Source: Microbacterium dextranolyticum (GTDB lineage Bacteria > Actinomycetota > Actinomycetes > Actinomycetales > Microbacteriaceae). From it: 64,000 nt of DNA. Within the stretch, counting starts at the first letter, position 1. Each line of letters begins with the position of its first letter. The notes below the pieces were generated by a model. It was not told where the DNA came from and searched no databases. It was given only the letters and a program-made list of their open reading frames with translations. The stretch covers positions 1,984,001 to 2,048,000 of the forward strand of contig NZ_JAFBBR010000001.1 in the NCBI RefSeq assembly GCF_016907295.1, written 5' to 3'. Position numbers and translations under genes: made by a program. Below, in pieces: positions 3,318 through 62,762 of the stretch.

Positions 3318-4616
3318 TCAGGCGAGCGGCTTCACCTCGAGGTCGTGGCGTTCCTGCCCAGCGGCGACCGTGGCGAACGCGGTGTAGCCGTCGGACGCGG
3401 CCCGCTCGAGCAAAGCCTTCAGGTTCTTCGTGCGCTGCTCGAGGCGCACGCGCGATCCCTCCCCGATGAATGCGGCCTTCAGCGCCACGAGGTCGCCGAC
3501 GGGCACGTCGCGCTCGTGCACCAGAACGACGGCGGCGACACCGGCATCCGTCTCGGATTCCAGCAGCTCCACGAGCCGCTCGAACCCGAACGAGAAGCCC
3601 ACGGCGGGAACGTCGGTGCCGAGGAATCGGCCGATCATGCCGTCGTAGCGCCCGCCGCCTCCCAGGGAGTAGTCGACGCTCGGGTGCGCGAGCTCGAAGA
3701 TCGTGCCCGTGTAATAGCCCATGCCCCGCACGAGGAACGGGTCGAACGCGAGCGGCACCTCGGCGACGGCACCGGCGTCGACCGGGCGTGCCGCGGCGAC
3801 GGCGGTTCCGATCGCGACGAGGTCCTGGACGATCTCGTCCGGCGCCCCGTCGGGAAGCGCCTGTCGGATCTGGCTCTCCCCGAAGGGCCGGTGCTCGAAC
3901 GTCTGCGGGCGCCCGAGGAAACGCGCGAAAGCGTCGACCGCGGATGCATCCGCGCCGCGTCCGTGCAACTCGGCGACGACACCGTCCGGACCGATCTTGT
4001 CGAGCTTGTCGATCGTGATCAGGACACCCGGTCGCTCCCCCTCGGCGAAGCCGAAGTGTCCGAGCATCCAATTCAGGGCTCGGCGATCGTTGATGCGGAA
4101 CGTGCCGCCCTCGAGCCCGAGGGCATCCAGCGCGTCGAGGCTCGCGACGAGCAGTTCGGCCTCGGCACGTGCGGTGCCGTCGCCGATGATGTCGATGTCG
4201 CACTGCACGAACTGGCGGTAGCGCCCCTTCTGCGGCCGCTCCGCGCGCCAGACCGGCGCCATCTGGATCGACCGGAAGACGCTCGGCAGCTCTGCTCGGT
4301 GCGTCGCGTAGAACCGCGCGAGCGGCACCGTCAGGTCGTAGCGCAGGCCCAGGTCCGACAGCGCGGCCGGGTCGCCTCCGGCTGCGCGGACCGCCTCGGC
4401 GTCGAGGCCGCGCTTCAGGATGTTGAAGGCGAGCTTCTCGTTGTCGCCGCCGATTCCCGCGTGCAGGCGGCCGTACTCCTCGAGGACGGGCGTCTCGATC
4501 TCATCGAAGCCGTGCGCACGGTAGCGCCCCCGGATCACGGCGAGGATGCGCTCGCGTCGGGCCTTGTCGACGGGGAGGAAGTCGCGCATGCCGCGCGGCG
4601 GGTTCACGGATGCCAC
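3318..4616 (-). CDS. hisS: Histidine--tRNA ligase
   Basis: This 432-residue cytoplasmic class II aminoacyl-tRNA synthetase charges tRNA-His. Class II motif 2 is visible as FRSIQMAPVWRAERPQKGRY (114-133), and the histidine-specific signature LVRGMGYYTGTIFEL lies near residue 285. The anticodon-binding domain makes up the last 100 residues. Length is normal for bacterial HisS. The start is GTG at 4616; AAGAAT six bases upstream may be a weak -10 for a leaderless message. The in-frame ATG ten codons later (MRDFLP) would remove conserved residues. It lies 84 bp downstream of mazG on the same strand. Confidence 0.97.
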   Translation of the reverse strand: MASVNPPRGMRDFLPVDKARRERILAVIRGRYRAHGFDEIETPVLEEYGRLHAGIGGDNEKLAFNILKRGLDAEAVRAAGGDPAALSDLGLRYDLTVPLARFYATHRAELPSVFRSIQMAPVWRAERPQKGRYRQFVQCDIDIIGDGTARAEAELLVASLDALDALGLEGGTFRINDRRALNWMLGHFGFAEGERPGVLITIDKLDKIGPDGVVAELHGRGADASAVDAFARFLGRPQTFEHRPFGESQIRQALPDGAPDEIVQDLVAIGTAVAAARPVDAGAVAEVPLAFDPFLVRGMGYYTGTIFELAHPSVDYSLGGGGRYDGMIGRFLGTDVPAVGFSFGFERLVELLESETDAGVAAVVLVHERDVPVGDLVALKAAFIGEGSRVRLEQRTKNLKALLERAASDGYTAFATVAAGQERHDLEVKPLA

Positions 4617-4700
4617 GCGCCCATTCTTCCAGGTCCATCGCGGCGCAGCCGCGCAGCGCGGCGCGCCACGACACGGAGTGACTCGCGCAGCGCGGGAGCG

Positions 4701-5423
4701 CTACCCGGTCTGCTCCGCGGTGCGGATATCGCTCTCGAGTCGCCGGATCGCGCTGCGGAGCGCGCGCTCGGCATCCCAGCCGTTCGCCCGGGCGCTGCCG
4801 ACGAGGGCGAGCAGCCGCTCCCCCAGCTCGTCCTCGGAGCCGGCCTGGAGGTCGCCGGCGGCCCCGTCGGCCGGTGACGTGATCGCGACGCGAGCGGGAA
4901 GCGCTGCGGCGCGACCGAGGAGTTTCTGCGCCAGCGCGAGTGAGGGCATGTGCGCCGAGACCCCGTCGAGCACCGATCGGCGATCGCTCTTCTCGGCGGC
5001 TTTGGCCGCGTTCCAGTGCACGAGCACGTCCTCGGGCGTCGTGGCGACCGCGTCGCCGAAGACGTGCGGATGCCGTCGCACCATCTTCTCCACCAGGACG
5101 GCGGCCACGTCGTCGATGTCGAACGGGTCGTCGGCGTCGTCCGCCGCGACCGCCGCATGGAAGAGCACCTGCCAGAGGAGGTCGCCGAGCTCCTCGCGCA
5201 GGTCGGCGCGCGTTCCGGTCTCGACCGCATCGATGAGTTCGGCCGACTCCTCGACGAGATACGGCACCAGATCGTCGTGGGTGATCCGCTGCGACCAGAC
5301 GCACCGCTCGCGAATCGCGCGCATCGTCTCCACCGCCGCACGCAGAGCGTCGCCGGCCGCCTCGCTCGACGGGGGAAGGACGCCCGACGACGCCTCGTCG
5401 CCCGCGACGCCGGCGAGGCTCAT
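4701..5423 (-). CDS. mazG: MazG family nucleoside triphosphate pyrophosphohydrolase
   Basis: This 240-residue cytoplasmic enzyme hydrolyses (d)NTPs to the monophosphate and pyrophosphate, clearing damaged nucleotides. The MazG metal-binding helices show EESAE (58-62) and EELGD (77-81), followed by the family LLFHA-like segment. A second, less conserved half carries a linker rich in Ala and Gly. The ATG at 5423 overlaps the nhaA stop (ATGA), so translation is coupled to nhaA. Actinobacterial mazG is normally close to mfd; here hisS, nhaA, ppc and gdhA lie between. Family confidence is high and the exact nucleotide preference is unknown. Confidence 0.93.
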   Translation of the reverse strand: MSLAGVAGDEASSGVLPPSSEAAGDALRAAVETMRAIRERCVWSQRITHDDLVPYLVEESAELIDAVETGTRADLREELGDLLWQVLFHAAVAADDADDPFDIDDVAAVLVEKMVRRHPHVFGDAVATTPEDVLVHWNAAKAAEKSDRRSVLDGVSAHMPSLALAQKLLGRAAALPARVAITSPADGAAGDLQAGSEDELGERLLALVGSARANGWDAERALRSAIRRLESDIRTAEQTG

Positions 5424-61962: not shown

Positions 61963-62001
61963 CCCCGCCGAGCGGCGCTGTGTCGGGGACCATGCGGGGT
62001 C

Positions 62002-62094
62002 TGTCCCAGTTTCGGCAGGGCATGTCCCACTTTCGGCGCGGCATGTCCCACAAACTGTCGCTTCGCCAGGTGCAGAACGACAGATAGTGGGACA
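62002..62094. repeat. Repeat-hairpin module A
   Basis: Two 21-bp units (62002-62022, 62023-62043), each starting TGTCCCA and containing TTTCGGC, lead into a hairpin. Its left arm (62044-62060) reads TGTCCCAC-AAA-CTGTCG. After a 17-nt loop its right arm (62078-62094) reads CGACAG-ATA-GTGGGACA. Fifteen of 17 positions pair. Confidence 0.8.
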
Positions 62095-62214
62095 TGGATG
62101 CCTGGCCGCCCCGATCCAGCGCGGCGGCGGCATCCCACTGACGCAGATTCCGCGCGGGCGACCCGCCTTCGGCCGCCCATGGCGCATATGCCGCTTTCCG
62201 CGACGCACCCGGCA

Positions 62215-62328
62215 TGTTCCGCTTTCGGCAGGGCATGTCCCACTTTCGGCAGGGCATGTCCCACTTTCGGCGGAGCATGTCCCAAAAACTGTCGCTTTGC
62301 CGACCGGAGAACGACAGATAGTGGGACA
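62215..62328. repeat. Repeat-hairpin module B
   Basis: Three 21-bp units (62215-62235, 62236-62256, 62257-62277) precede a hairpin with left arm 62278-62294 and right arm 62312-62328. The right arm is identical to that of module A and the loop is again 17 nt. The hairpin begins 234 bp after that of module A. Confidence 0.8.
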
Positions 62329-62412
62329 CGGATGCTGCGGCGAGATCACCCCGGCCCGCCCTGCCTTTTCGCGCGCTCGGCGAGAAACCACCGCAGGCTC
62401 GGGAAACCACAT

Positions 62413-62492
62413 CAGAGCTGATTTCTCGTGACCAGACTGGTTTCTCACCCGCCAGAGCTGATTTCCCGTGACCAAACTGATTTTTCGCCCCC
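62413..62492. repeat. Tandem duplication of a 40-bp unit
   Basis: 62413-62452 and 62453-62492 are adjacent 40-bp copies starting CAGAGCTGATTTC that differ at six positions (85% identity). They contain no convincing start codon with a ribosome site. Confidence 0.75.
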
Positions 62493-62573
62493 TGGGGAAG
62501 GGTCCACGCTCGCCCGAACAGGTTCGTCACCCACCAGAACATGCCCTCGAGGCCAGCCCGGTCGCCCGCCTCC

Positions 62574-62668
62574 GGCACGGCTCGGCTCAGCTCGGCTCAG
62601 CTCGGCACGGCTCGGCACGGCTCGGCTCAGCTCGGCTCGGCTCAGCTCGGCTCGGCTCGGCTCGGCTC
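62574..62668. repeat. Pentanucleotide tract, 19 units of GGCTC and variants
   Basis: Nineteen consecutive 5-bp units are GGCTC, AGCTC or GGCAC. The period of five gives 15-bp peptide periodicity in every frame of both strands, which explains the repetitive open frames here. The tract ends 83 bp before the -10 box of the SDR gene. Confidence 0.85.
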
Positions 62669-62750
62669 GGCGGAGCGTGCCCTGGGCCGAGCCCGACGAG
62701 CCCGACAAGCCCGATAAGAACGACGAGCCCGAACGGATGCCATGCCTCGC

Positions 62751-62756
62751 TAACCT
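62751..62756 (+). promoter_or_regulatory. -10 box of leaderless SDR promoter
   Basis: TAACCT, GGGACG, then ATG at 62763. The repeat-rich region therefore lies directly upstream of an active promoter position. Confidence 0.6.
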
Positions 62757-62762
62757 GGGACG

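Follow-up and report, generated by a model that had tools for sequence, protein, structure and literature searches.

The window, the 64,000-nucleotide stretch of the Microbacterium dextranolyticum chromosome analysed here, contains two repeat modules, A and B, downstream of hemA and lacI (Table 1). In each module, tandem 21-bp half-units precede a 51-bp palindrome in which the heptamer starts are 44 bp apart. The right arm (CGACAGATAGTGGGACA) is the same in A and B, and the loops are 17 nt long in both. The two-module architecture of units, hairpin, shared heptamer, 17-nt loops and identical right arm, first described in a sequence-only reading of this DNA, is thus borne out. The pairing of the arms is imperfect, with 15 of 17 positions paired in A and 14 of 17 in B. 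Allowing up to three mismatches, TGTCCCACTTTCGGC occurs seven times in the window versus 1.27 times expected, and none of 100 shuffles reaches seven. Compared with each other, the two modules are evidently products of local duplication of a 108-bp stretch.

Table 1. Features of the two modules and of the candidate partner gene. Coordinates are window positions unless a genome and contig are given.
Feature	Position	Strand	Remarks
Module A	62002-62094	+	2 half-units + 51-bp palindrome
Module A, first 21-bp half-unit (TGTCCCAGTTTCGGC...)	62002..62022	+	
Module A, second 21-bp half-unit (TGTCCCACTTTCGGC...)	62023..62043	+	
Module A, 51-bp palindrome	62044..62094	+	arms 62044-62060 / 62078-62094, centre 17 nt
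Module B	62215-62328	+	3 half-units + 51-bp palindrome
Module B, first 21-bp half-unit, TGTTCCG variant	62215..62235	+	
Module B, second 21-bp half-unit	62236..62256	+	
Module B, third 21-bp half-unit	62257..62277	+	
Module B, 51-bp palindrome	62278..62328	+	arms 62278-62294 / 62312-62328
108-bp stretch including second half and palindrome of module A	61994..62101	+	87% identical to 62228-62335
Candidate cognate nuclease gene	G000:C1:2229731-2230697	-	outside the window, ~183 kb from the modules, adjoins pfkA

Directly 3' of module B, at 62382-62486 of the window, lies a second repeat family (GAGAAACCA / GGGAAACCA, then TGATTTCTC / TGGTTTCTC) with steps of about 19 bp. It is also present at several other places in the retrieved sequence of the same genome (L009, L013, L017, L018, and L027) and resembles the repeats that flank the type-B nucleases described below. 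Further on, at 62571-62672, a low-complexity tandem run of CTCGG/CTCAG pentamers precedes an SDR gene.

The module geometry recurs in the 3.18-Mb chromosome of this strain (G000) in at least 23 heptamer clusters, a lower bound because the count covers the retrieved stretches of the chromosome. With up to two mismatches, the right arm is present in 26 and 30 copies on the two strands, and the half-unit in 52 and 47 copies versus 1 and 5 for reversed-pattern controls. Same-strand heptamer steps of up to 60 bp measure 21 bp in 59 of 76 cases, and inverted steps measure 44 bp in 38 of 42. The family unit is a 51-bp palindrome accompanied, on one side only, by zero to five tandem 21-bp half-units. 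Modules are found in many unrelated gene contexts and local duplication of them is frequent; the place in the window is not special among the copies. The sequence-only reading had proposed a genome-wide search for the right arm and the 21-bp unit, and the many dispersed copies that this search returns indicate an element rather than a single RNA locus.

The left and right arms match each other at positions 8-17 no better than shuffled arms do, with p values of 0.675 in this genome (n = 41), 0.9995 in G008 (n = 28), and 0.14 in the LacPavin MAG (n = 23), and no compensatory changes between the arms are seen in these three genomes. Because the arms do not co-vary within genomes, they look like protein-bound DNA half-sites rather than the two strands of an RNA stem. 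The earlier suggestion that the right arm could pair with any of the half-units holds in a formal sense, but the half-units themselves look like extra half-sites.

Across the genus, a first search pattern matches 12 of 149 Microbacterium genomes, one of which (G057) also matches the reversed control. A three-heptamer pattern, which fixes heptamers and spacings only, matches 78 of 366 Microbacterium genomes, with no control matches among the matches listed; the search of related genomes proposed along with the genome-wide one thus finds the pattern recurring. A scan of named genomes yields 34 stretches, all from Microbacterium. Tandem half-units of the type seen here are confined to this genome among 299 genomes of the family, six of which are Microbacterium (this one included). 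The outer heptamer varies very little within a genome, and the inner box is typical of the species. In 108 modules, target-site duplications of 3-8 bp are no more frequent than with shuffled flanks, and of the two bases that precede the first heptamer, position -2 is C in 95 of 108 modules and position -1 is A in 79 of 108. Viral contigs contain no exact match to the repeat and so lend no support to a viral origin, which is rejected.

Occupancy of individual sites differs between species. For at least eight arrays of this genome, the corresponding position in another species is occupied by an array as well. The array between metG and tatD is present in 4 of 30 genomes (G000, G008, G123, and G011) and is absent from the closest relative, G018. 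G000 has an array at a place that is vacant in G018, and the reverse also holds (L019 against L128). At the site of modules A and B, G008 and G018 retain hemA-lacI, and the downstream gene differs.

The candidate partner of the family is a single-copy gene with an array on each side in this genome. Its 322-residue product is a probable REase-fold nuclease (MTES_1575/DUF559-like, Vsr-like), judged from profile similarity. The fold assignment is weak: the C-terminus matches PF18741 (REase_MTES_1575) with an E-value of 9.8e-7 and 29.2 bits, under the cut-off of 38.2, and the protein scores below the cut-offs of both PF18741 and DUF559. Among 34 aligned homologs, PF18741 is matched at E ≤ 0.01 in 29 and DUF559 in 14. 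Six residues (E216, D249, E260, D262, H266, and Q272) reach an identity of 95% or more in an alignment of 67 proteins (3 of 70 left out); E216, D249, E260, and D262 are probably the acidic residues of a PD-(D/E)XK site. The best solved relative is an endonuclease-like protein (3hrl) with an E-value of only 0.3, and an AlphaFold model made from two sequences is too poor to use (mean pLDDT 44.5). The N-terminal half matches the PADLOC AbiEi model with an E-value of 3e-6 (9.1e-5 for the type-B nuclease), and no Pfam DNA-binding domain is matched in it. REase-fold domains of the Vsr type also occur in Vsr-like (EDxHD) homing endonucleases.

A DnaA-box-like motif, TGTGGANAA, lies within 200 bp upstream of the nuclease gene at 12 of 70 loci, downstream at 0 of 70, and in 0 of 287 window tiles. 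TGTGGATAAC likewise precedes the nuclease homolog in three of three Arthrobacter cases; the loci behind these observations are L194-L223, L267-L306, and L307-L309.

Whole palindromes flank the nuclease gene. Pairs of TGTCCC and GGGACA, 43-46 bp apart, are present on both flanks at 26 of the 30 top nuclease loci, on one flank at three, and on neither at one (G610). In 14 further genomes that carry the gene and lack dispersed three-heptamer matches, the pairs are present on both flanks in all 14, so that the closest homologs combined have them on both flanks at 40 of 44 loci. Relaxing the pattern slightly raises this count to 42 of 44. At 34 of the 44 loci the half-units of both flanks point away from the gene, and at 1 of 44 any half-unit points towards it. 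The downstream array adjoins a convergent peptidase gene. Cassettes of this nuclease (type A) located away from pfkA, in G667, G497, and G050 and as second copies in G616 and G619, likewise have TGTCCC pairs on both sides. Sites at pfkA that are empty of nuclease are also seen, and their comparison brings out no single recognition site that the gene interrupts.

Two insertions were noted at nuclease loci. In this genome, an IS3-like copy (L018, about 3673-4994; G000:C1:2228173-2229493) has inserted into a TGTCCCA unit, is bordered by TCC at either end, and splits the array adjoining the nuclease gene. In G571 (L244), an inserted transposase gene splits the nuclease frame, and the upstream array remains.

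The presence of the nuclease is associated with the presence of arrays. Taking a match at E ≤ 1e-90 as nuclease and at least one pattern match as array, 46 of the 366 genomes have both, 15 the nuclease only, 32 arrays only, and 273 neither, an odds ratio of 26 that is uncorrected for shared ancestry; at other cut-offs the odds ratio is at least 22. Like any association across one genus, it is inflated by shared ancestry. The mean number of array matches is 9.2 with the nuclease versus 0.55 without it. Dispersed three-heptamer matches are lacking in 15 of 61 nuclease-bearing genomes. Conversely, 10 of the 44 genomes with at least five array matches have no nuclease at E ≤ 1e-90: G670 and G571 have a split or interrupted nuclease at pfkA; G564, G565, G503, G672, G146, and G115 carry the other nuclease type there; and G016 and G593 are left unclassified. 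Nuclease remnants were also sought at the arrays themselves. Five of 71 array loci give a match at E ≤ 0.01, of which four are at the pfkA locus and one (L077) is at a contig end. With no nuclease remnant at the dispersed arrays, the element therefore seems to spread without the gene.

The nuclease gene evolves faster than pfkA. In all 780 pairs drawn from 40 genomes, which are not independent of each other, the nuclease is less identical than pfkA, with median identities of 0.618 and 0.915, respectively. The palindromes change with the nuclease. When pfkA distance is held fixed, palindrome distance correlates with nuclease distance (partial Mantel r = 0.336, reached in 0 of 5000 permutations, n = 34), versus r = -0.027 for palindrome and pfkA distances with the nuclease held fixed (n = 34). 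The palindromes flanking the gene differ less within a genome (distance 0.182) than between genomes (0.301; 0 of 50000 permutations, 36 genomes).

More distant nucleases are bordered by other repeats. Among 26 more distant type-A homologs, TGTCCC pairs are present on both flanks of 5, on one flank of 2, and on neither flank of 19. The 21 without pairs on both flanks include 18 whose two flanks have a different repeat in common, with a score above 14, for example TGTCTCACTTATTCAG in G495 and GTTGAGTGTCCAAAACACCCGG in G615; in the remaining three (G524, the second copy of G534, and G099), no shared flank repeat exceeds the metG control. Control loci score above 14 in 0 of 30 cases at metG and 1 of 29 at pfkA. 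In 17 of 30 sampled genomes the pfkA site holds a related nuclease, type B, both flanks of which carry repeats of another sequence. For 29 type-B loci (17 at pfkA and 12 elsewhere in G000, G564, and G008), the two flanks of a locus are each other's best match in 21 and rank third or better in 28, with G029 ranked 14th; none of 100000 permutations reaches the observed mean. pfkA and the peptidase gene are masked in this test, and with the peptidase coding sequence included the number of top ranks is 13 of 29. Beyond the genus, all three Arthrobacter plasmid homologs (33-36% identity) have long palindromic repeats common to both flanks.

By species, the gap between pfkA and the S9-peptidase gene (L224-L253) acts as an exchange site that holds nuclease A, nuclease B, or neither. 

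We propose, at slightly better than an even chance, that modules A and B belong to a dispersed, non-coding, REP-like element partnered with the single-copy, palindrome-flanked REase-fold nuclease, which would bind, cut, and spread it. The nuclease may use its AbiEi-like N-terminal half to bind the TGTCCCA half-sites and may do so in oligomeric form, with spacings of 21 bp (two helical turns) and 44 bp keeping the oligomer in register. The palindrome would then be nicked or cut by the REase domain, after which the element would be homogenised, duplicated, and occasionally spread by repair or copying. Two identities offered by the sequence-only reading, a protein-binding array and a miniature non-autonomous element, both fit a dispersed family with fixed 21/44-bp geometry in 78 of 366 Microbacterium genomes. 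A broader proposal, to which we give rather less than an even chance, is that of a widespread actinobacterial class in which each AbiEi-like/REase-fold nuclease would copy and co-evolve with its own palindrome, several orthogonal families coexisting per genome.

The fixed two-turn spacing and the independence of the arms would equally fit an oligomer that regulates. On such a reading the AbiEi-like protein autoregulates, the flanking arrays are its operators or terminators, the dispersed arrays form a regulon or chromosome-organising sites, and the REase domain has another role. The palindromes on both sides of the gene, and the arrays that keep their intergenic place in another species, fit as well. 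However, the arrays lie on both flanks with the downstream one beside a convergent gene, occupancy is patchy down to the closest relative, as between metG and tatD, the active-site residues of the nuclease are kept, and an unsystematic look at the array neighbours brought no common pathway to notice; we consider a regulator unlikely. The exchange of nuclease A, of type B with its own repeats, and of an empty site between pfkA and the peptidase gene, together with type-A cassettes that carry their palindromes elsewhere, would instead fit a selfish, homing-like nuclease. In this case the cassette itself would be mobile, with the palindromes serving as the sites where it is cut or ends and the dispersed ones as footprints of cassettes moved or lost. 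This is quite unlikely in our estimate: the dispersed arrays examined contain no nuclease remnant at E ≤ 0.01, their modules carry arrays of half-units and locally duplicated stretches in place of a split site, and most of the 366 genomes have one type-A match.

Each module is able to fold, and many clusters lie between tandem or convergent genes according to a rough gene caller with overlapping calls, as would suit a transcribed hairpin acting as a small RNA, an attenuator, or a terminator. The palindrome is not followed by a U run, Rfam has no match at the modules (its only match in the window is a tRNA elsewhere), and the arms match no better than shuffled ones in three genomes. An RNA is therefore very improbable, and the small RNA locus and the attenuator after hemA-lacI put forward in the sequence-only reading are both disfavoured, also by the many unrelated gene contexts of the modules. 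The TGT and ACA ends, the tandem 21-bp sites, and the patchy presence recall a MITE or the ends of an IS21-, Tn7-, or IS3-like transposon with repeated transposase sites. This, too, has very little probability, in view of the lack of excess target-site duplications and of such tandem units in the 298 other family genomes (only five of them Microbacterium). Among 10 of the 14 rve-domain loci of the genome, moreover, there is no full element with the same ends, and the sole locus with repeats is the IS3-like copy inserted into an array. The insertion of this copy into a TGTCCCA unit, together with the target-site result, speaks against IS21/IS481/Tn7-type ends, which are rejected. A RAYT partner is rejected as well, since no PF01797 match is found in this genome.

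Few bacterial repeats are as common as REP palindromes. The RAYT transposase is, to our knowledge, the one enzyme tied to them. The closest known system to the nuclease-palindrome pair is that of REP/BIME/REPIN elements with RAYT (TnpA-REP) transposases (PMC2817692, PMC3733652, PMC8266576, PMC3116915). Nunvar and colleagues propose, from four signatures, that RAYTs are the enzymes establishing REPs (PMC2817692). As in that system, the palindromes here are dispersed, extragenic, and locally amplified without target-site duplications, a fast-evolving cognate gene lies between two inverted palindrome copies, the gene co-evolves with the palindrome, and its presence correlates with palindrome abundance. 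Unlike in that system, the enzyme is a probable REase-fold nuclease (PF18741/DUF559) and not a Y1 HUH transposase of the IS200/IS605 type, the palindrome has no GTAG foot and is mostly preceded by C and then A, and the element, at 51 bp plus 21-bp half-units, has a greater length and a strict 21/44 geometry. Since neither the enzyme nor the foot of the palindrome is that of RAYT-REP, we do not class the pair as a member of that system though the four signatures are seen; by analogy, we propose that it works like RAYT-REP with an unrelated enzyme.

Other known systems share single traits with the pair. CGTC-type REPs are likewise palindromic extragenic repeats, for which no dedicated transposase is reported (PMC3733652); they differ in sequence and hosts, and here a candidate partner gene exists. 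MTES_1575 itself is described as a giant protein that fuses HEPN, helicase, and transglutaminase parts and has been proposed to act in defence (PMC3710099). Our candidate probably has in common with it a Vsr-type nuclease domain of REase fold but is a protein of about 300 residues, with an AbiEi-like N-terminus and cognate palindromes on its flanks. AbiEi antitoxins of type IV toxin-antitoxin systems have weak similarity to the N-terminal half, but here the AbiEi-like part is fused to a nuclease domain. We found no published description of this nuclease-palindrome pairing in the open-access PMC literature.

If the proposed partnership is true, REP-type enzyme partnerships, with their flanking palindromes, abundance, co-evolution, and fast change, would have arisen more than once. 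The broader actinobacterial class, if real, would represent an independent, non-transposase route to the RAYT-REP way of life and would assign a role to the DUF559/MTES_1575 proteins, which form a large orphan family. For the small actinobacterial nucleases, a family so far little understood, the pairing is a hypothesis open to direct test. This genome offers about 40 natural candidate substrates, with matched half-sites and spacings, for binding and cutting assays.
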